From Neolewinella agarilytica (GTDB lineage Bacteria; Bacteroidota; Bacteroidia; Chitinophagales; Saprospiraceae): 64,000 nt of DNA. The stretch is taken from positions 1 through 64,000 of the forward strand of contig NZ_FOFB01000025.1 of the NCBI RefSeq assembly GCF_900110645.1. Direction: 5' to 3'. Under the pieces are notes generated by a model that was given only the letters and a program-made list of their open reading frames with translations, did no database searches and was not told the origin of the DNA. Below, piece after piece: positions 1-13,440 of this stretch. A program made the translations under genes and the position numbers. Numbering within the stretch: the stretch's first letter is position 1; the number at the start of each line of letters is the position of its first letter.

Positions 1-297
1 GTGCATTTTCCGTAGCGGAGCGAAGGATAAAATGTTCCTTTCCCTTCGGGGCTGCTTCGCGGTGAGGGTCCGGCTTCGAGTATGCGTTAGCCCTGTGGGG
101 GGGGCTTCCCGGAAGAAGGCAACTATACACTACTTAATTCTCATGACACTAATCACCCCCAAACTTCGAGTCGGCACTAGGCCTTCAAAACACAGATACC
201 TTCCCTCGACTACCACCTCCCCTCTGGGTGCAGGAATTTTGAGATATGTGGCTAATCCTGCTACCCCTCTATGAGATTTCCGATACCTTCTCCTAGC
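1..297. other. Intergenic region, no credible gene
   Basis: No convincing gene is visible; the 80-codon frame at 32-274 runs through a dispersed repeat. The stretch holds copy A of an 89-bp repeat (6-94), a G run (99-106), and a box at about 160-176 (AAACTTCGAGTCGGCA) that recurs at 1996-2011. It lies downstream of the lipoprotein gene that ends at 298, and may be upstream of a gene beyond the left edge. Confidence 0.6.
6..94 (+). repeat. 89-bp dispersed repeat, copy A
   Basis: This block matches 54473-54561 over its whole 89-bp length without gaps and with roughly ten substitutions. It begins TTTTCCG-AGCGGAGCGA, contains TAAAATGTTCCTTTCCCTT and GGGGCTGCT-CGCGGT, and ends GAGTATGCGTTAGCCCT. 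Equal length and even divergence in non-coding DNA point to a dispersed element; it shows no coding sense. Confidence 0.85.
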
Positions 298-1476
298 CTA
301 CAGCTTAATCAGGTAAAGCGTTTTGGGACCAACATCATTGTAGGCCTCGTCGAGCCCCTTTAACTCTTCTAACCACTCCTTGGATACTTCAGTAGCGTCT
401 GGGTCAATTTTGGCAAAATGCTTTACCTGGTAATCAGGAACAATCCGGAGAAAATGACCGTCATGGTACATTTGGGGTGGCTCAATAGTTAATTGATTAT
501 ACTTTAGGTATCTATGGTTCACCACCATTTCATTTGATTTTCTATCTATTAATCCAAAGTAATCTTTATGCCCAACTTTATAACGGAAAGCCAACCGTAA
601 GCTATCTGCAGCAAGACTCATCAGTTGAGGCACGCTTTCTTCTCGCATATATTTTAATTTATTCCGGATACTTTCTTTTTTCATAACCTCTTCCGATCTA
701 ATTGTTCCTTCAAATTTTATGGAAAATTCCGGACGCACCTCAGGCAAATTAACGCTATAAATGGTATCCCGGAAAGGTGCATGGTAGTACAGTGATTCAT
801 TTAGTAGACTAAACTCCTGAACCCCGCCTATAAGCAAATGTTCAGGCGCATAAGGAAGCGAGGTAATAAACGAATTTTCGACCTGCCCTTTAACAGTCCA
901 TATTAATTGTTTGGAACGATCCAATACATGTGTATTCAGGCGGCCTTGGCAAGAATAAACTACTTCATCAGGAGCTACGAAAGCCATTCGATTAAAGTTA
1001 AAAACTGGTTTAGGCTCAACGTCAACAAACTTTCCCTCTTGATTATAAGTATAAATTTTTTCGATACTCTGCACAATTAAAGTATTGTCAAAATAGTTAT
1101 AATAGACTGCTCTTACATCATTAAAAACTCTAAAATCTGTAGGATCAGCGGTCAATTGCCAAATAATATCTCCTTCCATACTAACACTAGAAATGATGCT
1201 GAAAATTTTGTCTACCAATATGACATTCTGACTTGCATCAAGCATAAAACTAGAAACATTCCCAACTTTTTCCGCAGTTTCTCTAGTTAGATTAATCGTG
1301 ACTATATTTCTAAACAACTCTGACGCATTAAAAACAACCTTATCGTTTCCTTTAGTTACTTTATAGTCCTTAAAATCAAAGGAATACTTTTGGGTACCCC
1401 CTCCCCCACTCTCACAAGAGGCAGCTAACGCCACTAACAGGGTAAAAAACATAAAAGCACTCCAGCATAGTCTCAT
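298..1476 (-). CDS. Secreted lipoprotein, 6-bladed beta-propeller-like
   Basis: The product has 392 residues from the chosen ATG at 1476. That start gives a clean lipoprotein signal (MRLCWSAFMFF, then a lipobox LAASC), whereas the longer frame adds 27 polar residues that overlap an upstream hairpin. After a Gly-rich linker the chain shows repeating beta-strand patterns and resembles the 6-bladed beta-propeller (BF3164-like) lipoproteins of Bacteroidota, which are surface proteins of unknown role. The family call rests on pattern only. The gene is clearly AT-richer than the RND and nuclease genes nearby. It lies downstream of a small secreted peptide gene, with a perfect hairpin between them, an arrangement reminiscent of NVEALA peptide/BF3164 pairs in Bacteroides. 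Confidence 0.6.
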   Translation of the reverse strand: MRLCWSAFMFFTLLVALAASCESGGGGTQKYSFDFKDYKVTKGNDKVVFNASELFRNIVTINLTRETAEKVGNVSSFMLDASQNVILVDKIFSIISSVSMEGDIIWQLTADPTDFRVFNDVRAVYYNYFDNTLIVQSIEKIYTYNQEGKFVDVEPKPVFNFNRMAFVAPDEVVYSCQGRLNTHVLDRSKQLIWTVKGQVENSFITSLPYAPEHLLIGGVQEFSLLNESLYYHAPFRDTIYSVNLPEVRPEFSIKFEGTIRSEEVMKKESIRNKLKYMREESVPQLMSLAADSLRLAFRYKVGHKDYFGLIDRKSNEMVVNHRYLKYNQLTIEPPQMYHDGHFLRIVPDYQVKHFAKIDPDATEVSKEWLEELKGLDEAYNDVGPKTLYLIKL

Positions 1477-1494
1477 CTTAGTATATTTAATTAT

Positions 1495-1543
1495 AAGCCG
1501 ACAAGACAATGAATAATTTATTAAAATCATGTCTTGTCGGCTT
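1495..1543 (-). terminator. Perfect 14-bp hairpin between peptide and lipoprotein genes
   Basis: The arms 1495-1508 (AAGCCGACAAGACA) and 1530-1543 (TGTCTTGTCGGCTT) are perfectly complementary around a 21-nt AT-rich loop. It lies after the peptide stop (1603) and 19 nt before the lipoprotein ATG (1476). There is only a weak T-rich tail on the minus strand, so it may be a leaky terminator/attenuator or a processing site rather than a full stop. Confidence 0.6.
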
Positions 1544-1602
1544 TCCTTTATCATCAAAATCAGTAAGAATTATGTCAACTATAGATTCAACTTAACTAAT
1601 GC

Positions 1603-1872
1603 TTAGCATCCTCGAAGCGGGCCTCCAAGTTCGATCTGAGTCCCATCACAGTTGACTAGCGTGCAACTGGACTCTCCTCCAATTGACGAGTCGCAGGTGA
1701 TGCGTTCAGAAGTTTCTGTTGCGTCACAGTATTCCATAAAGGAAATATATCCACAATCAGCACCACCACCTCCAATGCCACCCCCACCAGGCCCAGCAGC
1801 ATTAGCCATTGGCATCATACAAAACATGACCATGCCCAAGATGGTCGTTAATCTAAGAACTAAAGTTTTCAT
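1603..1872 (-). CDS. Small secreted Gly-rich, six-cysteine peptide
   Basis: The ATG at 1872 gives 89 residues; an in-frame TTG five codons upstream is less likely. A signal peptide (MKTLVLRLTTILGMVMF...) ends at about MANAA. A glycine-rich stretch (GPGGGGIGGGG) follows, and then a region with six cysteines (in ADCGY, EYCD, ITCDS, SSCTL, VNCDG and the C-terminal RGC), enough for three disulfides. I do not recognise the family. Size, export signal, glycine linker and even cysteine count suit a secreted peptide, perhaps a bacteriocin, signal or surface peptide; that is inference. The gene is first in a unit with the lipoprotein at 298-1476 and has a distinctive upstream region at 1932-2000 that is shared with a second peptide gene at 10080-10268. 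Confidence 0.6.
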   Translation of the reverse strand: MKTLVLRLTTILGMVMFCMMPMANAAGPGGGGIGGGGADCGYISFMEYCDATETSERITCDSSIGGESSCTLVNCDGTQIELGGPLRGC

Positions 1873-1931
1873 AAAAAAGGGTTTCAACCTGGTTTTTCCT
1901 TACACAGGTAAAGGCCATCACAAAAAGGCGC

Positions 1932-2000
1932 GATGGAGCCTATTATCGAGGACCAATTTAAGGGAGCATTAATTGCAACTTACCCAAACTTACCCAAACT
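1932..2000 (-). promoter_or_regulatory. Shared upstream region: 18-bp box plus 10-bp direct repeats
   Basis: Two tandem AACTTACCCA units plus a third AACTT start at 1977, 10-bp period. A box at 1932-1949 (GATGGAGCCTATTATCGA on the plus strand) is 60 nt upstream of the peptide ATG. The same two elements, at corresponding spacing, lie upstream of the peptide gene at 10080-10268. The 10-bp period would put protein contacts on one face of the helix. Confidence 0.6.
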
Positions 2001-2097
2001 TCGAGTCGGCATTAAGGTCAAAACCCGAGTTATGCAAATTCAGGCGATAAAATTTAGCTAGGGCCGGGACGCTTTTATAAATCGCACTACTAATTCA

Positions 2098-2196
2098 CCG
2101 CCGGTTAGAACCGGTGCTGTGCTACAAAGCTCTTCGAGCTATTATTAGTGAAGATAGCTCGAAGAGCTTCGTAACCCAGCACCGGCTTCAGCCGGA
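2098..2196. repeat. Triple-hairpin dispersed element, copy 1
   Basis: Central arms 2113-2142 and 2154-2183 pair over 30 bp with three mismatches. Each end carries its own small hairpin: CCGGTTAGAACCGG (2101-2114) and CCGGCTTCAGCCGG (2182-2195). The same design and core sequence (GGTGCTGTG-TAC-AAGCTCT) recur at 27099-27198. It resembles a non-autonomous MITE/REP-type element; no transposase is nearby. Confidence 0.8.
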
Positions 2197-2289
2197 AGCA
2201 GAAGAAGGCATCCGTGTATCTCAACACACACCTAATGTTGTCAATCCTCCCCCAACTCAAAATACCCTAACTTTACCTCGTACTAAAAC

Positions 2290-2364
2290 TGTAATCCACA
2301 ACCTGCACCCTGTAACCTGCAACTCGCAACCTGCAACTCGCAACCTGCAACCTGCCCCCCCCCC
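2290..2364 (+). repeat. Period-14 array and C10 tract at RND start
   Basis: Units of the type AACCTGCAACTCGC repeat imperfectly, and the array ends in a run of ten C (2355-2364) directly before the TTG assigned as RND start. It is one of several simple arrays in this window that touch a gene boundary. Such a tract is prone to length change. Confidence 0.7.
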
Positions 2365-5300
2365 TTGAAACCCTACCCCCTCCTCCTCTCCCTAACCGCT
2401 TTAGCCCTCATCGGCTACTTGCTACTGCCACGGCTCACCGTCCGCTGGCAGCCGGGCACGGGCGAGGCCAACCTGAGCGTCCGCTACGCCTGGGCCGGGG
2501 CAGCGCCGGACGCACTGGAGCAACAGGTGACCGCGCCGCTGGAAGCGGCCTTTGCCCTGGTGCGGGATGTAGAGGAGATCACTTCGGTGAGCCGCGCCGG
2601 GCGCGGCAGCATCAACCTAAAATTACGGCGGGGAGCGGATGGCGACTTTGTCCGTTTCAACGTCGCCAGTCAGATTAGGCGGCTCTATCCGGAGTTACCG
2701 GCGGAGGTGGGCTACCCTACCCTCGATTACGCCTCGGCCGAGAACGAAAAACTCACCGACCTGCCGGTGATGACCTACACCCTCTCCGGCCCCGACCCAC
2801 CCACTGAGCTTTACCGCTACGCCACCGAGCAGCTCGCTCCACGGCTGAGTCTGCTGCGCGGCCTCAACCGACTGGAGGTGACGGGCGGCAACCGCCCGCA
2901 CTGGCGCATCAGTCTGCGGCCGGAGGCGCTGGCGGCCGCCGGGCTGACGCCCGCTGGCATTCAGGGTTACCTACGGCAGTACTTCGAGCGTTCCGGGCTC
3001 GGATTTATGCTGTCCGGAAAGGAAAAACTGTACGCTTATAATGACGTACCGACGGAGACGTCTTCGCTAACCGCCACCGAATGGGCGGCCATTCCGCTGC
3101 CCACCACCGGTGGACGTCAGCTCACCCTTGGCGACTTGGCAAGCATAGATCGCGTACCGCTGCCAGCCCGCGCCTACTACCGCATCAACGGAGAAAACAG
3201 TATCCGACTTCTGGCCTACGCTACCGAAGATGCCAATCGCATTGCCCTCGCAAGGGAACTCAGCACCCGCGTCCGCGCCCTCACTACATCAGCCAGCGAT
3301 CAAATATCAGGCGAGGCAGGCAACGGCATTCTCCCCCCCGGCTACCAGCTCTTCCTCGAAGACGATGCCACCCGTTTCCTGCGCGAAGAACTCGCCAAAA
3401 CCCGCAAAAGAACGGCCCTCAGCATGGGCATCCTGCTGCTGTTCGTCCTCCTGGCGTATCGCAGTTTCCGCCGCCTGGGCGTGGTTTTGTTCAGCCTGGC
3501 CGTTAACCTTGGCCTCGCCTTCCTCTGCTACTGGTTTTTCGGCGTTGAGCTCAATCTCTATGCCTTCGCGGGCATCGCCGTTTCTTTCGGCATCATGGTT
3601 GACAACGTGATCATCGTCATCGACGGCCTGGGTCGAAAGGGCGGGCCGCTGCCTCCCGCCGTCATCGGCGCCACCCTCACCACCCTGGCCGGCCTTTCCG
3701 TCATCTGGTTCCTCTCCGATGAGTTGCGCACCCAACTCTACGAACTCGCCCGCGTAATGGCCATCAATTTATCAACTTCGGTTTTGGTGGCGCTGACGCT
3801 GGTGCCGGCGCTGGTGAAGGAGCAGGGGAAGGGCCAACCTCCAACGAGCGGCAGCCAAATCAAATATCCCAAATCAAATATCGCCTATCGCATATCCTCC
3901 CTCTATCAGCGTCTCCTAACCCTCCTCCTCCGCTTCCGCAAAACCACCCTCCTGCTCGTCATCCTCGCCTTCGGTTTGCCACTCTGGTGGCTGCCCAACC
4001 GGGTTGATGACTGGCCGATCTACAACGAGACCATCGGCTCCGACTTTTACCGCGATCAACTCCGCCCTCACCTCAACAAATACCTTGGCGGATCTTTCCG
4101 TCTCTTCAGCTACTACGTCTACGAAGGCAGCGGCTATCGCCCCGCCGAGGAAACCCGCCTCTACGTCGGCGCGGCCCTGCCCGACGGCGCTACGCTGGAG
4201 CAACTCAATCAGGTTGTCACCCAGGTAGAAGCCTACCTCGGGCGTTTTCCTGACAAGATCGACCGCTTCACGGCCCAAGTATATTCCGGGCAAAATGCCC
4301 GCATCGAAATCACTTTCCCCGATGGCGGGCGGGGTGGATTCCCCTACACGCTGAAGAATCGGCTGACGGCCTACGCCACCAATTTCGGCGGTGTAAAGTG
4401 GAACATCTACGGCGTCGGCCAGGGTTACAGCAACGATGCCAGCGGCCGGCCCGTCAGCTTTAACGTCACCCTGAAAGGCTATAATCAGGCAGGGCTGGAC
4501 GCGCAGTCTGGTCGCCTAGCCAGCCTCCTGCTCAAGCACCCGCGCGTGCAGGAGGTTAACACCGACGCCAACCTCAACTGGTGGGAAAAAGACCGCTACG
4601 AATACCTGCTCCGCTCCCGCCCCGAAGACCTCGCACTGCGCGGCATCGCCCCCAACGAGCTACGGGCCAGCCTGGCCTGGTTCGACCAAAACGCCCAGCC
4701 GGACTTCTACCTGCGCGGCGGTGAGCCCGTCGCCCTCGTTGCCGAAAATGCCGACCGCTACGACCGCTGGCGCCTCGAGAACTGGAGCATCCCCCGCGAT
4801 ACGGGCCAGCTTAATTTCCCGGAGGTCGCCACGCTCGAAAAACGCCTCGCGCCCCAGGCCTTGCACAAGGAAGACCAGCAATACCTCCGCCTTGTCGCCT
4901 TCGAGTACCTGGGTAGTCCCCGCTTCGGCAATAAGCACCTCAATGCCTGCCTGGACACCCTGCGCGCCGAACTTCCCCTCGGCTTCACCGCCGAGCGCCG
5001 GAGTTATTCCCGTGACAAGCAGGCCAAAGAGATGACCGCCCTCATGGGGCTGGCCGTTTTACTGATCTTCTTTATCTGCGCCGTCTTATTTGAGTCACTA
5101 CGGCAGGCATTCAATATCGTCCTGCTCATCCCGATTTCCTGCATCGGTATCTTCCTGACCTTCTACTGGTTCAACGTTCGGCTGGACCAGGGTGGCTACG
5201 TAAGTTTCCTGCTCGTTACCGGCCTGGCGGTAAACGGGCTCATCCTGGTCATCAACGAATACAACTATCTGCGCAAGCAAGCCTCAGCAACTACGCCCGT

Positions 5301-5553
5301 CCAGCTCTATGCCACGGCCATCCGCCACAAGATCACGCCCATTGTTCTAACGGTAATTTCCACCGCCGCTGGCCTCATCCCCTTCCTGCTCGGCGGCCGA
5401 AACGAAGTCTTCTGGCACGCCCTGGCGGCGGGGACTATCGGTGGGTTGGTGTTCTCGGTGATCGTCATTCTCTTCGTTTCGCCGGTCTTTTTCCTGCGGC
5501 GGGAAGTTGTACCGCCGACTTCAGTCGGCGGGAAACAAGAACCAGAAGCTTAG
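2365..5553 (+). CDS. RND-family efflux transporter permease
   Basis: A 1062-residue inner-membrane proton-driven exporter of the AcrB/CusA superfamily. The first TM segment (residues about 4-22) precedes the porter region. A block of TM helices lies near residues 350-490, a second porter half near 540-880, and a last helix block near 890-1040. TM4 reads GIMVDNVIIVID, keeping one of the acidic residues of the proton relay; TM10 reads GLAVNGLILVINEY, with Asn where AcrB has Lys, as in some other family members. No membrane-fusion protein or TolC partner is adjacent, so substrate cannot be inferred. The start is uncertain: only TTG at 2365 precedes TM1, directly after a C10 run, and the frame upstream has no ATG back to a stop at 2284. 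The C-terminal tail (PPTSVGG) is encoded by a hairpin repeat. Confidence 0.9.
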   Translation: MKPYPLLLSLTALALIGYLLLPRLTVRWQPGTGEANLSVRYAWAGAAPDALEQQVTAPLEAAFALVRDVEEITSVSRAGRGSINLKLRRGADGDFVRFNVASQIRRLYPELPAEVGYPTLDYASAENEKLTDLPVMTYTLSGPDPPTELYRYATEQLAPRLSLLRGLNRLEVTGGNRPHWRISLRPEALAAAGLTPAGIQGYLRQYFERSGLGFMLSGKEKLYAYNDVPTETSSLTATEWAAIPLPTTGGRQLTLGDLASIDRVPLPARAYYRINGENSIRLLAYATEDANRIALARELSTRVRALTTSASDQISGEAGNGILPPGYQLFLEDDATRFLREELAKTRKRTALSMGILLLFVLLAYRSFRRLGVVLFSLAVNLGLAFLCYWFFGVELNLYAFAGIAVSFGIMVDNVIIVIDGLGRKGGPLPPAVIGATLTTLAGLSVIWFLSDELRTQLYELARVMAINLSTSVLVALTLVPALVKEQGKGQPPTSGSQIKYPKSNIAYRISSLYQRLLTLLLRFRKTTLLLVILAFGLPLWWLPNRVDDWPIYNETIGSDFYRDQLRPHLNKYLGGSFRLFSYYVYEGSGYRPAEETRLYVGAALPDGATLEQLNQVVTQVEAYLGRFPDKIDRFTAQVYSGQNARIEITFPDGGRGGFPYTLKNRLTAYATNFGGVKWNIYGVGQGYSNDASGRPVSFNVTLKGYNQAGLDAQSGRLASLLLKHPRVQEVNTDANLNWWEKDRYEYLLRSRPEDLALRGIAPNELRASLAWFDQNAQPDFYLRGGEPVALVAENADRYDRWRLENWSIPRDTGQLNFPEVATLEKRLAPQALHKEDQQYLRLVAFEYLGSPRFGNKHLNACLDTLRAELPLGFTAERRSYSRDKQAKEMTALMGLAVLLIFFICAVLFESLRQAFNIVLLIPISCIGIFLTFYWFNVRLDQGGYVSFLLVTGLAVNGLILVINEYNYLRKQASATTPVQLYATAIRHKITPIVLTVISTAAGLIPFLLGGRNEVFWHALAAGTIGGLVFSVIVILFVSPVFFLRREVVPPTSVGGKQEPEA
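5512..5531. repeat. Short hairpin related to triple-hairpin ends
   Basis: CCGCCGAC-TTCA-GTCGGCGG forms a perfect 8-bp stem inside the last codons of the RND gene. It matches the end hairpin of the element at 27099 (CCGACTAAAGTCGG) closely, so it may be a solo end or decayed copy. The following 5554-5691 is non-coding low-complexity CT-rich DNA. Confidence 0.6.
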
Positions 5554-5691
5554 AAGAACATTGGCGGTCGGATCGAAGCTGGCCACGGCTCCGAGCATCT
5601 GGACGGAAAATTTGCCACTACGCTCCAAATTTACCGACCTCCTCCGCCTCTCCCCACCCGGCAACCTGGCACCTGGCACCCCGCACCAGCC

Positions 5692-6630
5692 TCACCGCCT
5701 CCGCAACAATTTCCCCATCCGCCGCCGAAACCGCCCTTCGGCCAGCGGGTCTTCCATCCGGTAAGGAGCCAGACCGATTAAGAAGGTGTTCGGGCCGGAA
5801 AGCAAGGGTGTCGCGCCTTCGGCCCGGCCGAAGCCGGCGACCACCATTCCATCGGGGCTGTCTCTGGCGCCAATCTCTTCGTTACCGAGGTAACTGATGT
5901 GGTCGCCCAGAGTGTCGGGGGTTTTCTGGGCCATGAAAAACACGTAAGGGTTGTGGTCTTCGCCAAAATACAGATACCGGTGCTGGCCGCGCTGAACATC
6001 TCCCTGAAAGTGGTCGTGAATGTCGTAGCTCGGGCCGGTCAGATCAGTGGCCCAGAAGGTGGACCGGGGCAGATATTTCCCACCGGCGGGCCCTTCGTAT
6101 AGAAACCAGTAGTTGACACCTTCGGGAGTCAGCACTACGTCCAGACGGGCATAATTGGCGTAGAAGGTCCAGGTCCAGGCCCAATCTCCGGAGGTGCTTA
6201 CGGTATGAATTTTGTTGCGCCCCGTCACGCGGCTCTCACACTTCTTATGACCGGGATGACCAGCGCCATCATCATCTCCGCCGAAGACCAGGTTCGGCAC
6301 GCCGCGATAAGAGGAAGCAGCCGAGGCGGGGTATTCGCCCCCGGGCTCGTCCTGATACCCCACCCAGTCATTACCCAGTTTATCGAGAATGGAGCTGAAG
6401 CCACCCGCTACGGGATCGTAGAGATAGGTGGCCGTTCGGGTTTTGATGCGAAAATGCGGCCGGCCGAGGTAATTGACGGTTTTGATGCGGCGGGCGGTGG
6501 CAACTTTGTCGTTTTCTACATCAACCGGCATCTCTTCATCTGCACATTCGGCAGGCTCAGTAATCACGGTAGCACCCAAAAAAGGACAAAAGAAGAAGAG
6601 AATGACAAAAAATGTACTCAACAGTTTCAT
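5692..6630 (-). CDS. Secreted protein of unknown function
   Basis: 312 residues from the ATG at 6630, chosen over a TTG two codons upstream because it gives a compact Sec signal (MKLLSTFFVILFFFCPFLGA). The mature part is rich in aromatic residues and Gly/Asp turns (WVGYQDEPGGEYP, FGGDDDGAGH, WAWTWTFYANYARLDV, YFGEDHNPYVFFM) and looks all-beta, as in extracellular carbohydrate-binding or PmoA-like proteins, but I cannot name a family. The C-terminus is unusually basic (RFRRRMGKLLRRR). It converges with the RND gene and ends in the CT-rich spacer, so the basic tail may be an extension into repeat-like DNA. Confidence 0.6.
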   Translation of the reverse strand: MKLLSTFFVILFFFCPFLGATVITEPAECADEEMPVDVENDKVATARRIKTVNYLGRPHFRIKTRTATYLYDPVAGGFSSILDKLGNDWVGYQDEPGGEYPASAASSYRGVPNLVFGGDDDGAGHPGHKKCESRVTGRNKIHTVSTSGDWAWTWTFYANYARLDVVLTPEGVNYWFLYEGPAGGKYLPRSTFWATDLTGPSYDIHDHFQGDVQRGQHRYLYFGEDHNPYVFFMAQKTPDTLGDHISYLGNEEIGARDSPDGMVVAGFGRAEGATPLLSGPNTFLIGLAPYRMEDPLAEGRFRRRMGKLLRRR

Positions 6631-6713
6631 AGGCAAACTTGTGACGCTACAACCCCTAAGCGCCCCTCATGTTTACTATTGAACAAGATAGAAATGGATT
6701 GAGTGAAAACCTT

Positions 6714-9269
6714 TTAAAAGGAAAACCGAAAGCCTAAAAAGCCACTGAATGGTGGAAGATCCGCTCTTTGCACCTGCACTTCATTTAATAAAAAGTAAAA
6801 AGATTGGCCCGTATCATTAAGACTTTGAGAATAGCTTTCTATACTTGCTGTCAGCTGCCAATGATTTGATAATTTATGGGTTCCTTTCACCCTGAAAGAA
6901 GGTTTTACAAAAAGCAAACTACTGTATTGAGCCAAAGCTCCACCTTTAAGTTGAAGTCGAAAAGATCCAAAACTTCGTTCGCCTTGCAGCAAAAACAGAC
7001 TCGTCAGTATTGTTGGCCCAGTTGAATTTAAGTTCAAACGTTGCTGTGATGACAAGTTGATCATTTGATCACGAACCATGATTTCGTACTCGCCCTTCAC
7101 CTCAATTTTTGTTTGATAAGTATCCACAAACTCACTGACCCCGAATCCGCCAGACTTAGTACAAAAAATACTTGTGGATATTTTTGCACTTAAGTTCTCG
7201 CTCCTACGCCAATTCATTGACGCACGACTAAATAAGTTTTGAGCATCATCGTAAATGAATTTATCTTTCAGTAAAACGTCAACTATCGGTTGCTGAAAAC
7301 TAAGAATCGATTGCCTTTTCCCCCATTGCAAATAGAACATTTCAGTCCTCCCTTTTTTCGGAGACAAACGTGACCAGTACAGGCCTATATTTAAATAATT
7401 AAGTTGTGTAACTGCCTCAGGGAAATCAACAGACACCTGAGTAGCGCTAACAATTGACAACCGTCCTTCGGGCAATTTTGCGACATAGTCCTGAGGAGCA
7501 TAACTAACAGTACCACGCACCGTAGAGAAGCGAAACTTATGCTCTACAACAACATTCGTAGATGGACGCAAATATCCAGCTTGATAATCCCCACCTATTC
7601 TTCCATTAAATTCCAGTCCTTTTCTTTGCATCTGAAAATCTAACCCCGACGAAAATCGTTGATAGCCAGTAATAAAACTAAAGCGTTCCAAGGCAATCCG
7701 CTCTACTTGATGATTGTTAAAATCAGCACGCCACGAATTATACCATCCCAACTGAGCCCCCTTCCATTCCCTGGATAGAGTGTACCCCATTTCACTTGCG
7801 AGAGAGCGCCAACTTTCTTGCTGTACAACCGAATTACCATCCACCCCATAGATAAACTGGAGAACAGGCAAATTATCGGCAGAAGCCAATCTTAGCTGAT
7901 TTTCAGGAAGACGCTTAACATTCACACTCCCGCTTATTTCGTGTGCCCAACCTTTATTCATAAAAAAACCATCCAATGATGCACCAGCAGCAACACTCAT
8001 ATAATTTTTCTCTGAATCACTCGTCAGGCTTCGAATAGAATTAAAAACCCTGGTGCTGCTACCCTGATTTACAAAACCTTTTTCTACTGTGACTCCTGCG
8101 CTCAGGTGTATTGCAGCACTTTCAGAAAAACGCTTTTCCGTTTTATTGCGAACCGTGAAATGCCAACTTTCCTGATCATCCTCTAGTCGGCTGCTACTTA
8201 ACTCACCGTTGGGTCCGATTACAGAACTTGTTGAAGAAAGGGAGGAAGCATTAAAAACGCCTACTAAAGAAATAGAAGCGGATAGATTTTCTTTATCTGC
8301 TAGAGAACCATTAACGCCTACTGAGGAAAGATCATAATTACGTATTGGCTGCTGTCGAAAGTAGATTCGTGGAATCTTTAAGCCGTCCTTCGCATAGGAC
8401 AGGCCAACCAACGATATATAATCAATCGGCTGTAGCTCTGGGTTCCCTAAATTACGTGAAGCCGTGTTAACAAACCACTTTTTATTGTTGACATACATCC
8501 CAAAACCTTGGTGCAGGTAGCCAGGAAGCCCTTTCCCGTCTATGCCTCCAGCAACGTTGGCTCTCCCGAACAATCTATTCTTGCGATTACTCTCCAGTCG
8601 AATATCTACTTCAAAATTTTCAAGGGCATTCCCTCTCAATCCCTTTTGGGGAGAAAAGGCTAGCTCATCAACATCTCCGGCCTGGAGGTTAGTCAAAAGT
8701 GCTCTCCCGTTTTCACTAGCGAAATCATCTCCATCGATCAGAAAGCGGTTTAGCGGCCGCCCCAGGTAAGTGATTCCTTCATCAGTCTTTTCTACACCAG
8801 GAAGTCGTTCTAATATTTCACCTAATTGTTCCGAGCTATCCAGCTTAAACCTGTCAATGCTATAAACAAAGGTATCGCCATTCACCCTGATTCCCCTTCG
8901 TGTATCCTTAACAATTACGGACTCCATGAAGTTAGCCAGGGGTAATAACCTAATTGACAAAGTATCTTTAAAGGAAGTCGGTGCTTCAAACCTTATTGTA
9001 TCTGGTCTATAGCCAAGACTTCTGGTGATAAGCAACGAGGGAAAAACATAGTTTGAATCGACTGTTAATTGCCCGTACCCATCGTTATCGGTTGCAGTAA
9101 AGGTTTGAATCTGAGGGCTATCTCCGCGATATAGTATAACAGTAGCCCCTGGCAGTTGTTCCCCTTGCACTTCACTTTCGACAATTACCGTAAGGCTGAT
9201 CTGTGATGAGGCCACATAACCTGAGAACAGAAAACAAAGCAGCATGAAAAATCTTATGATTTTAATCAT
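6714..9269 (-). CDS. TonB-receptor-like outer-membrane beta-barrel with carboxypeptidase-regulatory-like domain
   Basis: 851 residues. A signal peptide (to about residue 22, ending ASSQ) precedes a carboxypeptidase-regulatory-like beta-sandwich (about 25-110, with GATVILYRG) and a plug-like region (about 115-215, with LERLPGVEKTDEG and RFLIDGDDF). The rest has alternating amphipathic strands of an outer-membrane barrel and ends in Phe (FLGFRFSF), the usual barrel-assembly signal. Such barrels are often found with GLPGLI proteins, one of which lies 8 nt upstream at 9278-9988. Substrate unknown. The gene is AT-richer than its neighbours outside the 6.7-10.3 kb module, suggesting acquisition of the module as a unit. 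Confidence 0.85.
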   Translation of the reverse strand: MIKIIRFFMLLCFLFSGYVASSQISLTVIVESEVQGEQLPGATVILYRGDSPQIQTFTATDNDGYGQLTVDSNYVFPSLLITRSLGYRPDTIRFEAPTSFKDTLSIRLLPLANFMESVIVKDTRRGIRVNGDTFVYSIDRFKLDSSEQLGEILERLPGVEKTDEGITYLGRPLNRFLIDGDDFASENGRALLTNLQAGDVDELAFSPQKGLRGNALENFEVDIRLESNRKNRLFGRANVAGGIDGKGLPGYLHQGFGMYVNNKKWFVNTASRNLGNPELQPIDYISLVGLSYAKDGLKIPRIYFRQQPIRNYDLSSVGVNGSLADKENLSASISLVGVFNASSLSSTSSVIGPNGELSSSRLEDDQESWHFTVRNKTEKRFSESAAIHLSAGVTVEKGFVNQGSSTRVFNSIRSLTSDSEKNYMSVAAGASLDGFFMNKGWAHEISGSVNVKRLPENQLRLASADNLPVLQFIYGVDGNSVVQQESWRSLASEMGYTLSREWKGAQLGWYNSWRADFNNHQVERIALERFSFITGYQRFSSGLDFQMQRKGLEFNGRIGGDYQAGYLRPSTNVVVEHKFRFSTVRGTVSYAPQDYVAKLPEGRLSIVSATQVSVDFPEAVTQLNYLNIGLYWSRLSPKKGRTEMFYLQWGKRQSILSFQQPIVDVLLKDKFIYDDAQNLFSRASMNWRRSENLSAKISTSIFCTKSGGFGVSEFVDTYQTKIEVKGEYEIMVRDQMINLSSQQRLNLNSTGPTILTSLFLLQGERSFGSFRLQLKGGALAQYSSLLFVKPSFRVKGTHKLSNHWQLTASIESYSQSLNDTGQSFYFLLNEVQVQRADLPPFSGFLGFRFSF

Positions 9270-9277
9270 ATTCCGCC

Positions 9278-9988
9278 TTATTGCTTCTTTTTACTCGCAC
9301 AGTATTCTTCTAATGTGAGTTCTTTAGCTACGGGGATCAATTCTTTAAGCCTTCCCAAGCCTATATGATCTTCCGGAAATTCGCTCTCTGCCTTTACTTC
9401 TATTGCTTTTACTACCCAAGTCTTTTCAGCGTTATTTACAGCTAAAACCAAGCCAGGAAAACCAACAAAGGCCCTGGGGCCTGTTGGGAATGGCAATTCC
9501 GGAGTGAAATATACAAAATAGTCGTTACCGCAATATTCTACTTTTGCCTCAAGACAAGTATAACCAGCTATTGTTTTCGAGACATTGGTCAAACTATATG
9601 AATGAGAGAAATCGCAGCTATGCAACCGTAAAGAGCCAGATTTCCTCGGCTTATTTTGGTGTATTTCTTTCGCACCGAAACTGTAATATACTGCTTCAGT
9701 TGTATCCGCATCTACTCTAACATTACTACTAAGTGATTTCTGATCAGAAATATTGGTATACAAAGAATGCTCAACCGTAAAGACAAGCATTGAGTAATGT
9801 TTTTTTTCCAGGGCTCCTAATATTTCATCAGTCATACCAGTCATTTTATCAGGAATAGCAGTCAAAACTTTCCCTGGATCAAATTTCTCACCATTCTCAC
9901 GTACATACTTCACTTCGAGTACCTCTTGCCCACAGACAGGTATTGAGCAAAGAAGCAAAAAACAACCTATTGTAACAAAAAATTTCAT
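9278..9988 (-). CDS. GLPGLI family protein
   Basis: 236 residues with a Sec signal (MKFFVTIGCFLLLCSIPVCGQ). The diagnostic motif appears as FVGFPGLVLAVN near residue 175, preceded by YFVYFTPELPFPTGP, both typical of the GLPGLI family (secreted or periplasmic, function unknown, restricted to Bacteroidota). Three cysteines in the mature part (HSCDFS, YTCLEAK, EYCGN) may allow a disulfide. It is the middle gene of a three-gene unit: small peptide, GLPGLI protein, outer-membrane barrel. The gap to the peptide gene contains a perfect hairpin (10029-10070); the gap to the barrel gene is 8 nt, so those two are probably co-transcribed. Confidence 0.85.
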   Translation of the reverse strand: MKFFVTIGCFLLLCSIPVCGQEVLEVKYVRENGEKFDPGKVLTAIPDKMTGMTDEILGALEKKHYSMLVFTVEHSLYTNISDQKSLSSNVRVDADTTEAVYYSFGAKEIHQNKPRKSGSLRLHSCDFSHSYSLTNVSKTIAGYTCLEAKVEYCGNDYFVYFTPELPFPTGPRAFVGFPGLVLAVNNAEKTWVVKAIEVKAESEFPEDHIGLGRLKELIPVAKELTLEEYCASKKKQ

Positions 9989-10028
9989 TTAATTTGTTTT
10001 AAAAAAAATTACAAGCATCAGTTAAAAG

Positions 10029-10070
10029 TGGACAGTGCCAAATCTCTTCCTGGTATTTTGGCACTGTCCA
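10029..10070 (-). terminator. Perfect 14-bp hairpin between peptide and GLPGLI genes
   Basis: Arms TGGACAGTGCCAAA (10029-10042) and TTTGGCACTGTCCA (10057-10070) pair perfectly around a 14-nt loop. On the minus strand CTTTTAAC follows, with an eight-T run further down, so partial termination is plausible and would raise peptide mRNA above that of the downstream genes. It occupies the same relative position as the hairpin at 1495-1543. Confidence 0.7.
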
Positions 10071-10079
10071 AATCAATGA

Positions 10080-10268
10080 TTAGTTTTCATCGAAACAGTC
10101 GACTGAAATAGTTAACGTCAACGTAACATCGTCATCGCCGCCCACTTCGAAACCATAGTAATCAAAAGGAACACCAGGAATTTCCTCGCATTCGTAAAAT
10201 ATCTCTAAGTGAGCCGCATTAAGTACTCCGGTGAAGCACAATACAGCAAGCATAGAAAAAAATTTCAT
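10080..10268 (-). CDS. Small secreted acidic peptide
   Basis: 62 residues from the ATG at 10268 (the frame extends nine codons further but that would bury the signal). The signal MKFFSMLAVLCFTGVLNA is followed by an acidic 43-residue mature part with two cysteines (FYECEE and SVDCFDEN), room for one disulfide, and a GGDDDV turn. I know no family for it. It heads the AT-rich unit with the GLPGLI protein and barrel and shares upstream elements with the peptide gene at 1603-1872, although the peptides themselves differ. A role as secreted ligand or surface component for the barrel is inference. Confidence 0.6.
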   Translation of the reverse strand: MKFFSMLAVLCFTGVLNAAHLEIFYECEEIPGVPFDYYGFEVGGDDDVTLTLTISVDCFDEN

Positions 10269-10333
10269 CTGGATGAAAGTTTTTAGCACCTTCATTTACC
10301 CATTCAGGCATTGGGTCATCATTAATAGGAAGT

Positions 10334-10417
10334 GATGAATCCTTTTATCAACCCCTAAATTAAACCAGGCACTTTAGTCAATTCCCCAAACTTACCCAAA
10401 CTTACCCAAACTTACCC
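10334..10417 (-). promoter_or_regulatory. Shared upstream region: 18-bp box plus three 10-bp repeats
   Basis: Three tandem AAACTTACCC units lie at about 10388-10417 with a lead-in CCC. A box at 10334-10351 (GATGAATCCTTTTATCAA on the plus strand) matches the box at 1932-1949 at 13 of 18 positions. Box-to-repeat spacing is 10 bp longer than at the first locus, which equals one repeat unit or one helical turn. The box lies 66 nt upstream of the peptide ATG (60 at the first locus). Confidence 0.6.
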
Positions 10418-10518
10418 GTCCCTCTGCGTGAAAAAACACCGCTGCGAAGCAGCCAACCTCCGCTTTGCTCCTCCCCTCGGCGCCCTCCACGTGAAAAAAG
10501 CACTGCGAAGCAGCCCCC
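10418..10518 (-). repeat. CACGCAGAGG / GCTGCTTCGC intergenic family, copy 1
   Basis: Read on the minus strand from the nuclease stop, the DNA shows GGCTGCTTCGCAG, a T run with CACG, GGCTGCTTCGCAGCGG, then TTTTTTCACGCAGAGGGACG. Related blocks begin at the stops at 28685 (+) and 52429 (-), in the same sense relative to the gene. Confidence 0.6.
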
Positions 10519-13440
10519 CTACCTCACCAACCCAATCAAACTCCGGTAATCATCAAAACGCGCATCATCAGCTTCCATTTCCAGCAGCTCATCGTGCGGC
10601 AAATCCTGATAAAGATCCTCCAGATGGCCCAGCGTTTCGTTGCAACGAACCTCGACTATCCCGTCCGCAAATTGTTCCCAACGCCAGTTATAGGTAGCCC
10701 GGATTTTCTTGAGCGTTGACGCCTGCACAACCTTCGCCTCATCTGCCCCGGCCACCGTTTCAATATTCGCAAAAGCCAGCTCATCACGGCTTAACATCAG
10801 GGCGTCCCGCAGTACGTAATAGGCCGTGTGCACCCGCTCTGGCTGCCGGTAAGGAGGCTTGTCTTCTCCGTCCGGGGGCAGGTTCTGGCGGATAAATTCC
10901 GCATAAAGACACAGCTGCACGTCCTTGGCATTACGCAGCAGGTTTTTAAAGACCGACTTCCCGCGCCACTTCAGGTCAACAACGGCCACTTCCACGATTC
11001 CATTCTTTTCCCGTTCCAGCACCAGGTCCGCCCGCCCGCGTATAAACTGCCCGCCCATCGGCTCCAACTCGCCTTCCAGCCGCTGCTCTGATCCGCGAAC
11101 GGACCAGCCATTCTCCTTGATATAATGCACCAATGACCAGGCCGAGTACTGCATCGTACGAATGAACTGTATCCGCTCCGGCTCCTGCCCGTATTCCAGC
11201 ATAACGGCCCCTTCCTGCGCCAGCAGGCGATCCGCATTGTCATCAATCCATTCCCGGACGGAGGCGCGTTCCATGAGCACTTCTCCGGACTTAATTTTAT
11301 TCAGCAGCCGCTCAATGAATAAGTGACTCAGGTTCCCCCGCAATCGATTTTCGGAAGCAATACTGAGAATCGGTGTGCCCTGCAAACGCAGTTGGTGGCG
11401 AAAAATCCATTTATGCGGGTAGTAGAGCAGGTCTTCCATGGCCGTCGGGGCTTCCCGCTCCCGGGGCTGAGCCTGCTGCAATCGCTCAATGGAGAACTGT
11501 GGCACCGGCCGGGAAAGCGGATGGATCGCTACCGGAGAAAAAGCTGGTCGCTGACCAGTAACCAGTGGCCCCGTAGCCTGGCCAGCGGCATCTACGTTGA
11601 TCGTAATCCGGTCCAGCGCACCATCGGGGAAGGCGGCTTCGAGGTCTCCGAAAAGCGGATGAGCCTCCACGGAGCTGCCGTCTACCCGTTCGGGCAGGCA
11701 CAAGATTAACTGCTCCCGGGTGTGCAGCACCGGGCGGAGTTGTTGCCAGGCAGAGCGTTCATTATGGTGAGCCGGGCCGTTGGGCCGGGCACCGAGGGAT
11801 TCCAGATATTCGAGCTCATCCGGATAATAGCGGGAGAAGAAATAATCGGGCTCATGCTCGATAAAATCCCACCAAATAAGCTTCTTCAGCGGATCAGTAC
11901 CGGGTAGTTTTGCCGCGGACGCAGGTGCAAAGATAGTTGAAAGCGAGCCCTGCTCCTTCGGCTGAAAATGAGTAGGGGCGGGCTCATACACCGTCCTTAC
12001 CAGTCGTTCCACTTCCAGAAAGTTGAGGTCCGTCTCCGGCTGGGCATCCAGCAGTTCCATGGCGCGTTGCGCCTGGGCAGAAAGCACCAGCAAGCCCGCA
12101 TAATCGCCAACCGTACGCTTGAGTTGTACGTCTTTCTTTCGTTTTTCCGTTCGTTCCAGTAGCGCCCATTCCCTTAGGTCAAAGAAGAGTTGCCGCAGGT
12201 CAAACTTAGGAATTCGCCCGTCCCGGCTGATCCGCCGCCGACGGAACCAATCGTCATACTGCTTCCGGATCGTCGCAATTTGATCGTTAGTCGTTTCACC
12301 GTCTGCTTGCAGTTCCCGGAAGAACCCCTCCACCATGGCTACCCATCGCGGCCCGAACATCCCTGGCGTATCCGCCAGGTGAACGGCCATGCGCTGCGCC
12401 AGCCGCCAGTCCAGTGGCTTGGTCACCAGGCTTACAAATTCCATTATCCGGTCTACCTCCAGGGGTTCCCAGAGAAAGGCCGTCACCAACTTCAACACCT
12501 GCAGACTCGGGCGGGCCAGGCTGGTGGAAGGGACCCCCAGGCTGGGAAGCCCCTCGGTCACCAGGGCGTTGTCCAACGTCTGGTTCCGGACCGTCAGCAG
12601 GGCACCGGGCCGCCAGTCAGGAGCGTCCCGCAGCAGGCGGGCCAGATAGGCCGCCAGATGCGTCTCGCGCTGCGCGCGCAGAATGACCAGAGAACCATCG
12701 CCCGTTAAATCCTGCTCCCGGGCAGTCGCTTCTGCAGCGGAGCTTGCCTCTTCACCAAAAAGTGATCCTTGAACAGGCTCCGGGCTCAACTTATCAATAC
12801 CACTTACAGCACGCAACTTGCGTTGCCAGGAGCCCAGGTCGTTATTCTTTAAAGGAGCTTTGGGCTCGGGGAGTGCAGAAACAGTGTCTCCCAGGCTCTC
12901 GAGCGCATCCAGCAGCCGGCGGGTTCCGGGCGTAAAGAGGTGGCGGGGCTCGTTGATAAAAATCTCTAACCTTGGGTGGCGGTCTTCGCCGAGACTGCTG
13001 AGCAGCAGGTTGAGCCGGTCGGCCGGACCGGCGTACAGATCAAGCTCATTATCATCGGCTAACAGCAGGGCTTCCAGTTCGTGCAGCACCCGGATTCTGG
13101 CCGGGGTTTCTTCCGCTCCTTCGGCGGAGAGGGGGTAGCCGGCATCCAGCAATTCGTCGCGCCGGCTTAGTAATTCTTCCGCAGTGGCCAGTTCATCCGC
13201 CCGAAAGGCCGCCAGGTAAAAAGGATCTTGTTCGCTGACCTTCAGGTACTGTACCAGAACTTGCCGATATTGCTCCGTGCGCAACGCCGCCCGGTTTACC
13301 GCCGGTGTACCGAGCGAATAAAAAGTCTCCAGGTAGCTCAACAGCCCGGAGGGAGACAGGATTTGGCTATTTACCAATTCAGCTGGCGCTGCGGGAAGTA
13401 GCTGCGGGTCGTTAAAAGTGAGTCCTAAGTATATTTTCAT
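10519..13440 (-). CDS. PD-(D/E)XK nuclease, AddB/RecB-like
   Basis: 973 residues. The N-terminal two thirds resemble the helicase-like body of AddB-type proteins, but I see no Walker A motif, as in other inactive family members. The C-terminal third has the ordered RecB-family nuclease motifs: YYPHKW, then GNLSHLFIE (the H motif), GRADLVL, VVDLKWRG (D...DxK) and QLCLYAEF (the Q..Y motif). It is expected to act on DNA ends in recombination repair with an AddA/UvrD-type helicase, which is not adjacent. A copy of the window's dispersed word lies in frame at 11912-11931, coding FAPASAA in a linker. The gene is GC-rich like the genome average. Confidence 0.8.
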   Translation of the reverse strand: MKIYLGLTFNDPQLLPAAPAELVNSQILSPSGLLSYLETFYSLGTPAVNRAALRTEQYRQVLVQYLKVSEQDPFYLAAFRADELATAEELLSRRDELLDAGYPLSAEGAEETPARIRVLHELEALLLADDNELDLYAGPADRLNLLLSSLGEDRHPRLEIFINEPRHLFTPGTRRLLDALESLGDTVSALPEPKAPLKNNDLGSWQRKLRAVSGIDKLSPEPVQGSLFGEEASSAAEATAREQDLTGDGSLVILRAQRETHLAAYLARLLRDAPDWRPGALLTVRNQTLDNALVTEGLPSLGVPSTSLARPSLQVLKLVTAFLWEPLEVDRIMEFVSLVTKPLDWRLAQRMAVHLADTPGMFGPRWVAMVEGFFRELQADGETTNDQIATIRKQYDDWFRRRRISRDGRIPKFDLRQLFFDLREWALLERTEKRKKDVQLKRTVGDYAGLLVLSAQAQRAMELLDAQPETDLNFLEVERLVRTVYEPAPTHFQPKEQGSLSTIFAPASAAKLPGTDPLKKLIWWDFIEHEPDYFFSRYYPDELEYLESLGARPNGPAHHNERSAWQQLRPVLHTREQLILCLPERVDGSSVEAHPLFGDLEAAFPDGALDRITINVDAAGQATGPLVTGQRPAFSPVAIHPLSRPVPQFSIERLQQAQPREREAPTAMEDLLYYPHKWIFRHQLRLQGTPILSIASENRLRGNLSHLFIERLLNKIKSGEVLMERASVREWIDDNADRLLAQEGAVMLEYGQEPERIQFIRTMQYSAWSLVHYIKENGWSVRGSEQRLEGELEPMGGQFIRGRADLVLEREKNGIVEVAVVDLKWRGKSVFKNLLRNAKDVQLCLYAEFIRQNLPPDGEDKPPYRQPERVHTAYYVLRDALMLSRDELAFANIETVAGADEAKVVQASTLKKIRATYNWRWEQFADGIVEVRCNETLGHLEDLYQDLPHDELLEMEADDARFDDYRSLIGLVR

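Follow-up and report, generated by a model that had tools for sequence, protein, structure and literature searches.

Strict 10-bp arrays at secreted-peptide promoters of Neolewinella agarilytica and its relatives, often beside small helix-turn-helix genes

Two peptide modules with a shared upstream architecture

The window analysed here is a stretch of 64,000 nucleotides (nt) at the start of contig NZ_FOFB01000025.1 (here C58) of Neolewinella agarilytica. Close to its left end lie two modules, W1 and W2, in which a small secreted peptide gene is followed by a lipoprotein gene or by genes for a GLPGLI family protein and a putative outer-membrane barrel. Both are preceded by tandem direct repeats of 10 base pairs (bp), which, judging from the comparison of many such loci, are probably read by a tiny DNA-binding protein of the helix-turn-helix (HTH) type often encoded beside them. 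The window genome is called G000 and C numbers are its contigs; other G numbers are sampled genomes, L numbers are sequence stretches, and N45, N50, N76 and M39 are array loci. The features are the following (aa, amino acids).

1976..1995, reverse strand: W1 array, two 10-bp units, GGGTAAGTTT GGGTAAGTTG in gene direction, with edge unit CAACTTACCC
1953..1960, reverse strand: predicted W1 -7 box TAAATTGG, 5/6 of TAnnTTTG, 15 nt past the last unit
1932..1949, reverse strand: W1 18-bp box TCGATAATAGGCTCCATC, predicted transcript start region, partly conserved there across 11 promoters
1996..2011, reverse strand: conserved upstream edge of the W1 array, TGCCGACTCGAAGTTT, recurring at C15, C21 and twice at C52
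1603..1872, reverse strand: W1 secreted peptide rich in Cys (89 aa), with leader DNA nearly the same as that of the C15 peptide and an unrelated mature part
298..1476, reverse strand: W1 six-bladed propeller lipoprotein, DUF5128 (PF17170, 34.9 bits for window 298-1557 against a gathering cut-off of 22.9)
10388..10417, reverse strand: W2 array, three units GGGTAAGTTT, from the sequence
10378..10387, reverse strand: W2 degenerate fourth unit GGGGAATTGA, register kept, from the sequence
10355..10362, reverse strand: predicted W2 -7 box TAATTTAG, 5/6 match, 15 nt past the degenerate unit
10334..10351, reverse strand: W2 18-bp box TTGATAAAAGGATTCATC, predicted transcript start region by sequence comparison
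10080..10268, reverse strand: W2 small acidic secreted peptide, 62 aa, from the reading frame
9278..9988, reverse strand: W2 GLPGLI family protein (TIGR01200, 76.6 bits against a cut-off of 50)
6714..9269, reverse strand: W2 protein of 851 aa, putative outer-membrane barrel, with weak CarboxypepD_reg matches below cut-off
2365..5553, forward strand: RND efflux pump (ACR_tran domain match), neighbour of W1
161..176, reverse strand: lone upstream array edge, a remnant with no array, from the sequence

A preliminary description of the window had reported repeat blocks and an 18-bp box ahead of both modules. The blocks were confirmed at 1976-1995 and 10388-10417, together with the degenerate unit at 10378-10387, which had been missed. 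The box lies where it had been placed (1932-1949 and 10334-10351), its identity between the two loci being 14 of 18 on recount instead of 13 of 18, and its distances of 60 and 66 nt to the ATG agree with gene starts at 1872 and 10268. The modules are, as had been noted, AT-richer than their surroundings, with GC contents of 0.389 and 0.409, the values for two adjacent genes being 0.611 and 0.577. The third locus suspected near position 160 was not borne out: AAACTTCGAGTCGGCA is present at 161-176 as well as at 1996-2011, but there is one unit at 161, with no array and no -7 box where it would be expected, and the contig starts at base 1; the site is a remnant only. Neither the W1 nor the W2 peptide matched a Pfam family, none of eight peptides tested against NCBIfam passed a cut-off, a PADLOC search with 12 peptides gave no match, and an Rfam scan of window positions 1-12000 returned sub-threshold matches only.

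Arrays across the N. agarilytica genome

The window genome (6,220,808 bases in 74 contigs) was searched with two tandem units, allowing up to three mismatches in 20, and with the reversed pattern as a control. Twenty match positions fell at seven places (C58:1976, C58:10388, C52:1755, C52:4448, C21:127836, C15:1909 and C71:6505), and the control gave none in the whole genome. In gene direction the unit is GGGTAAGTTT at five places and GGGGAAGTTT at two. Downstream of all seven arrays is a small peptide gene (62-90 aa), the product being taken as secreted from its hydrophobic leader. The second gene encodes a lipoprotein in six loci, and the seventh (window 6714-10417) continues with the GLPGLI and barrel-like proteins. 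Four of the six lipoproteins are propellers, with DUF5128 over the Pfam cut-off at W1 and C71 and DUF4221 over it at C21 and C52a; the C52b lipoprotein matched TolB_like slightly under the cut-off and that of C15 had no Pfam match. Three further DUF5128-type genes were found in this genome, on C37 and C57 (over the cut-off) and C73 (under it), and no period-10 run occurs in the stretches around them.

The preliminary description had proposed that secreted-peptide loci share their upstream architecture and a common type of regulator, and this is now well supported. Repeats equally frequent before housekeeping genes would have spoken against it; all seven arrays precede peptide modules, and no strict period-10 run occurs in 400 kilobases (kb) of large G000 contigs or in 77 kb more (0 in 477 kb). 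In 293 kb of background from G100, G024 and G018 there was one such run (L271). The placement of the arrays is not due to chance. We also observed that contigs C15, C21, C52 and C58 terminate at or close to cassettes, so the assembly was probably broken by repeats and copies may be missing.

Register of array and promoter

The -7 consensus of the primary sigma factor in Bacteroidota is TAnnTTTG. We scanned for it the 60 nt downstream of 11 arrays from the window genome, Neolewinella aurantiaca and a Bacteroidia metagenome-assembled genome (MAG), with 2000 shuffles for comparison. A -7 box (at least 5/6) starts exactly 15 nt past the last unit in nine of the 11. At W2 and N50 the best match lies at offset 25 (5/6 and 4/6, respectively), and the extra 10 bp are occupied by one degenerate unit (GGGGAATTGA and GGGGAAGAGT). 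Overall, 10 of 11 own-lineage arrays have a box of at least 5/6, and the best single offset in the shuffles was 3/11 (the maximum in 2000), the 11 loci being partly related to each other and so not 11 independent cases. Since the 15-nt spacer has no conserved sequence, it is the length that is maintained. The 18-bp box starts a few nt downstream of the -7 box and is predicted to be the transcript start; a terminator-like reading of AGGCTCCATCAAGCCT was dropped, and it was retained as transcript-start region only. The -7 distance is likewise constant within other genomes, at 32 and 32 in G018 and at 27, 27 and 27 from the run ends in G024, with 27 again in its fourth array, L257.

The same period with other units in related genera

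A scan of a genome collection with a looser pattern gave 23 stretches. Arrays of GGGGAAGTTT ahead of peptide and lipoprotein genes were present in N. aurantiaca SSH13 (two) and in the Bacteroidia MAG (one, where the first 49 aa of the lipoprotein precede the contig end), and a third N. aurantiaca locus, found by DNA search, has a different unit, GGGGATACTT, five times in the equivalent position. The tandem unit with one mismatch matched six of 150 family genomes, G000 and five others with one or two matches each, every one of these with a mismatch; two congeners in this sample had no tandem-unit match. Exact units in other phyla were regarded as unrelated 10-bp repeats. Among exact-unit matches in the collection, the surrounding genes were read for L039, L040, L045 and L050, and L040 (a Culturomica MAG) had no such module. 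The Planctomycetales MAG CSMAG_3057 has 10-bp repeats of AAACTTTCCC with similar flanks at four loci (L037, L051, L052 and L058).

The propeller families DUF4221 and DUF5128 were found in 19 and 29, respectively, of 120 sampled family genomes. Thirty-eight stretches around the better propeller matches and eight own-lineage sources, 483,700 bases together, were scanned for runs of any period. Lag 10 gave 27 runs, its harmonic lag 20 gave 19 and every other lag 0-14. The 27 comprise 11 own-lineage arrays, 15 runs forming 14 new arrays in nine of the 38 stretches, and one unrelated run (L161). In gene direction the new units are AATAATCGGA, TTTTGACCGA and GTTTTGTCAG in G100, AAATTGGTGC, ATTTGCAACG and TTTGTCCAAC in G023, CAAAATGCGT in G058, AAAATGTCCC in G018 and TTTCCAGTTA in G024. 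Twelve of the 14 arrays stand before genes for a small secreted peptide and, next, a lipoprotein of propeller type, one before genes for GLPGLI and a large protein that is barrel-like by reading, and one before the gene for a lipoprotein of 182 aa. Within G018 and within G024 one unit is common to arrays with unrelated flanks. Searched in its own genome, the G024 unit forms a single cluster of four arrays on that genome's C35 only, and the G100 unit occurs on its C57 (five), C93 and, as one weak match, C14; reversed controls gave 0-1 per strand.

We tallied 35 strict arrays (G000 7, N. aurantiaca 4, the MAG 1, G100 10, G023 4, G058 1, G018 3, G024 4 and G341 1). Their cargo is a peptide plus propeller-type lipoprotein in 24, some under the Pfam cut-off, a propeller-type gene alone in one, a GLPGLI module in three and other secreted, lipo- or membrane proteins in seven. 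Two period-10 runs, L161:9770 (AT-rich) and L271:16006, were kept out of the tally because no such module lies downstream. The preliminary description was thus right to link both module types, as GLPGLI modules with arrays occur in other genera too. In NVEALA/BF3164-like pairs, a small peptide accompanies a propeller lipoprotein of the DUF5128, DUF4221 or TolB_like type. The modules described here are like these pairs in that a small secreted peptide precedes a six-bladed propeller lipoprotein; the shared promoter arrays are a new feature. The W2 protein at 9278-9988 and proteins of L159, L221, L304, L318, L324 and L332 are members of the GLPGLI family (TIGR01200) over its cut-off, and that family's definition does not include the array promoter, HTH gene or preceding peptide found here.

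A small HTH gene beside the arrays

Directly before the array at C15 and N76 lies a small HTH gene. With tblastn, relatives or remnants of it were found adjoining arrays in C21, C52, L162, L165 and L167, and also at three loci with no strict array (L160, L171 and L178). The 23 members are 59-89 aa long and single-domain, with no effector or dimerization domain, and the Pfam families shown for them are nearly all HTH types. Eleven genomes were searched with a six-protein profile, and most of them yielded small HTH genes; the sole match in the MAG was a long, unrelated-looking frame. An HTH gene or remnant lies within about 300 nt of 17 of the 35 tallied arrays. In a non-blind set of 26 HTH genes, from which two more at contig edges were excluded, an array (at least 15/20 identities at lag 10 within 330 nt) accompanies 17, downstream in 15 and upstream in two, and other non-harmonic lags gave 0-1 on either side.

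A blind test was made with a 23-row profile, its rows mostly from array loci. Among the candidates scored, which were part of all, it matched 52 of 219 sampled family genomes and 39 of 112 genera in 96 rows, of which 26 were already known, 10 were not fetched and 60 were fetched as blind loci chosen by the HTH protein alone. Within 400 nt, 24 of the 60 reach 15/20 at lag 10, or 22 once two 5-bp simple repeats (L325 and L362) are set aside; at this threshold lag 20 gave 19 and other non-harmonic lags 0-10. At 17/20, lag 10 gave 15 (13 minus L325 and L362) and no other non-harmonic lag more than four. Fourteen of the 22 blind arrays have a perfect TAnnTTTG in the next 65 nt (shuffle mean 1.3, maximum 8). 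The first open reading frame has a hydrophobic stretch in 21 of the 27 blind loci with at least 14/20, at a threshold of 2.0 chosen afterwards. Four proteins were tested as GLPGLI and all four are members, each behind a small secreted peptide gene.

In a phylum sample of 345 genomes, at an E value of 1e-10 and among the candidates scored, the HTH matched in its own genome and in G341 only. The latter belongs to another family of the same class and was chosen by its HTH only; it has a six-unit array beside the HTH gene and before a membrane-protein gene. Because the phylum and family searches scored part of the candidates, absences in them are weak. At 1e-8 the HTH gene of the window genome was found on C15 only, again among the candidates scored; a weaker match on C59 (1.1e-5) was not HTH-gene-like when read. 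Three congeners had no HTH match among the part of the candidates scored. A small HTH gene with weak repeats only (L222:3720-3947) lies upstream of cytochrome cbb3 oxidase-like genes, which we take to be ccoS and ccoN.

HTH similarity was compared with unit identity at the best rotation. For 18 hand-curated pairs r was 0.44 (p 0.0001), or 0.29 (p 0.006) minus four near-duplicates; for 39 loci, with 21 blind ones added and different genomes only, it was 0.24 (p 0.0002), and 0.21 (p 0.001) in the subset with HTH similarity below 0.6. Mean unit identity over the 39 loci climbs with HTH similarity from 5.8 to 7.7 of 10. In one HTH subclass the word is retained while its orientation to the promoter is reversed (L150/L332 against L225/L348), a finding that speaks more for recognition than for simple inheritance of a promoter.

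Proposed mechanism and alternative explanations

From the observed arrays, period, -7 register, cargo, HTH linkage and covariation we infer that small HTH regulators are likely, if far from certain, to bind head-to-tail on 10-bp operator arrays in the manner of BldC. The repeats would be the operator arrays of one promoter class. Each 10-bp unit would be bound by one protomer of a single-HTH protein of about 60-90 aa, successive protomers lying a helical turn apart and lining up head-to-tail along the same face of the DNA. The filament would end at or near the -33 region and assist RNA polymerase at the TAnnTTTG -7 box a fixed distance downstream or, less likely, block it; in the window lineage the last unit stands where the -33 element is expected, so activation appears likelier than repression. 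The promoter would drive a secreted-peptide or envelope operon, which encodes a peptide with a propeller lipoprotein, a peptide with GLPGLI and barrel proteins, or some other exported protein; often the gene of the regulator is carried beside its own array. In the window genome the one intact HTH copy, on C15, would act in trans on all seven arrays, W1 and W2 included. Cooperative head-to-tail binding fits the combination of a protein with a DNA-binding domain only, a strict repeat whose number varies and a constant -7 register, and because regulator and unit appear to change together, each lineage would have its own 10-bp word.

BldC of Streptomyces, a MerR-like protein of 68 residues, is reported to bind head-to-tail on direct repeats of varying number with the consensus AATTXXXX(C) (PMC5859096). 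The likeness lies in a very small regulator consisting of a DNA-binding domain only, in variable-number direct repeats and in units that combine an AT-rich and a G/C part and are spaced by about one turn of the helix (PMC5859096). Unlike those of BldC, the units here are strictly tandem at 10 bp and lineage-specific, often adjoin the gene of the regulator and serve operons of the envelope. We do not assign the HTH proteins to the BldC family: its model NF033787 was unmatched by 22 of the 23 HTHs at E 1, the one match having E 0.012, and hhalign against BldC gave 34% probability over 29 HTH residues only, with the wing unaligned.

Besides these poor matches, several observations weigh against head-to-tail HTH binding. 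No HTH gene or remnant lies within about 300 nt of 18 of the 35 tallied arrays, W1 and W2 among them, and some copies beside arrays are decayed (remnants at C21 and C52, a stop in N76, no start in L167). A strict array is missing from 38 of the 60 blind HTH loci, although inspection by eye reveals degenerate 10-bp repeats in many of these. Around propeller genes, an array precedes the module in just nine of 38 stretches, which means that the majority of the family's propeller loci lack a strict one. The -7 distance varies between genera. The covariation of HTH and unit is modest, and part of it may reflect joint inheritance.

The absence of an HTH gene beside 18 of the 35 arrays would also suit a different direct-repeat-binding protein encoded elsewhere, such as a response regulator of the LytTR or OmpR/PhoB type, an explanation we consider rather unlikely. 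TAAGTTTGG agrees with the LytTR consensus, and a receiver-type regulator gene is divergent to the array at L165. Both types bind direct repeats (PMC5859096). However, a receiver-type gene was seen near this one array only, LytTR genes not having been searched for, whereas small HTH genes have an array beside them in 17 of 26 and in 22 of 60 cases; unit changes follow the HTH sequence; and GGGGATACTT and most other units do not match the LytTR word.

It is improbable that the arrays are simply minisatellites born of slippage, which have no binding protein of their own and cause phase or dose variation of expression through their unit number. Unit number does range from 2 to about 8 between loci, and W1 and C15 have nearly identical flanks around two and six units with one base differing in each unit, which indicates that arrays are remade by slippage. 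Yet period 10 recurs in many genera with unrelated units, one unit is common to unrelated flanks within a genome, and neither the fixed -7 register nor the HTH linkage is accounted for; slippage may build arrays without being their function.

We give even less credit to an excisionase-like HTH for which the array is a recombination site that moves cassettes. The excisionase family is among the NCBIfam profiles with the largest number of matching members (6 of 23, best E value 3e-4), the modules sit on broken contigs and look shuffled, and a transposase-like gene was read near N45; but no integrase was recognised by eye in the open reading frame listings, no integrase domain search having been made, and the promoter register would have no role. 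Control of transcription or gene conversion by G-quadruplexes is scarcely credible, for although GGGG(N6) repeats in C15, C71, N45, N76 and M39 match the usual G-quadruplex pattern, W1 has two G tracts only and TTTCCAGTTA, CAAAATGCGT and ATTTGCAACG, in other genera, lack such runs, which excludes it as a general cause.

Cassettes and neighbouring genes

The promoter and leader of W1 and C15 are almost letter-for-letter equal, and the unit base, unit number (2 and 6) and mature peptide differ. Window 1606-1872 and L011:2072-2299 have near-identical leader and promoter DNA fused to unrelated mature peptides. The C15 mature peptide closely resembles one of G024 (local score 190), whose leader and unit differ. 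These comparisons indicate that mature parts, leaders and arrays recombine or evolve separately. The horizontal acquisition proposed in the preliminary description finds indirect support in the low GC content, in congeners without an array (two) or an HTH match (three) and in a mature peptide common with another genus.

In the neighbourhood of modules of the window genome, N. aurantiaca, G023 and G058 there are genes for RND pumps or HlyD membrane-fusion proteins (window 2365-5553; L083, L162, L163, L167 and L011), and one N. aurantiaca cassette sits between a pump gene and an apparent fusion-protein remnant. The neighbouring pump may serve in peptide export, or its gene may mark a site of insertion. 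DUF805b RNA (Rfam RF02914), a cis-regulatory candidate, occurs in G100 and G058 in 5' leaders that follow an array or an HTH gene (L159:620-654, L223:3156-3190, L219:4521-4555 and L167:4684-4718; two over and two slightly under the gathering score), and was not found in window 1-12000 or in the three own-lineage loci scanned (L010, L011 and L076).

We suggest, as a tentative and rather doubtful extension, that a minimal HTH and its own 10-bp array form self-contained mobile control cassettes, in which the DNA word of the regulator and the array would co-diversify so that sister cassettes within a cell avoid cross-talk, and whose slippage-set unit number would tune the expression of fast-evolving secreted peptides. 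If this is true, the bacterial family would hold dozens of naturally occurring, mutually orthogonal pairs of regulator and operator. The system described here gives the secreted-peptide, propeller and GLPGLI loci of Bacteroidota, which are poorly understood, a testable mode of control and a candidate regulator. The joint natural variation of regulator and 10-bp word comes close to a ready-made code for DNA reading by a minimal HTH. Regulon membership also becomes searchable, as a 10-bp array, often with a small HTH gene next to it, in front of an exported protein.

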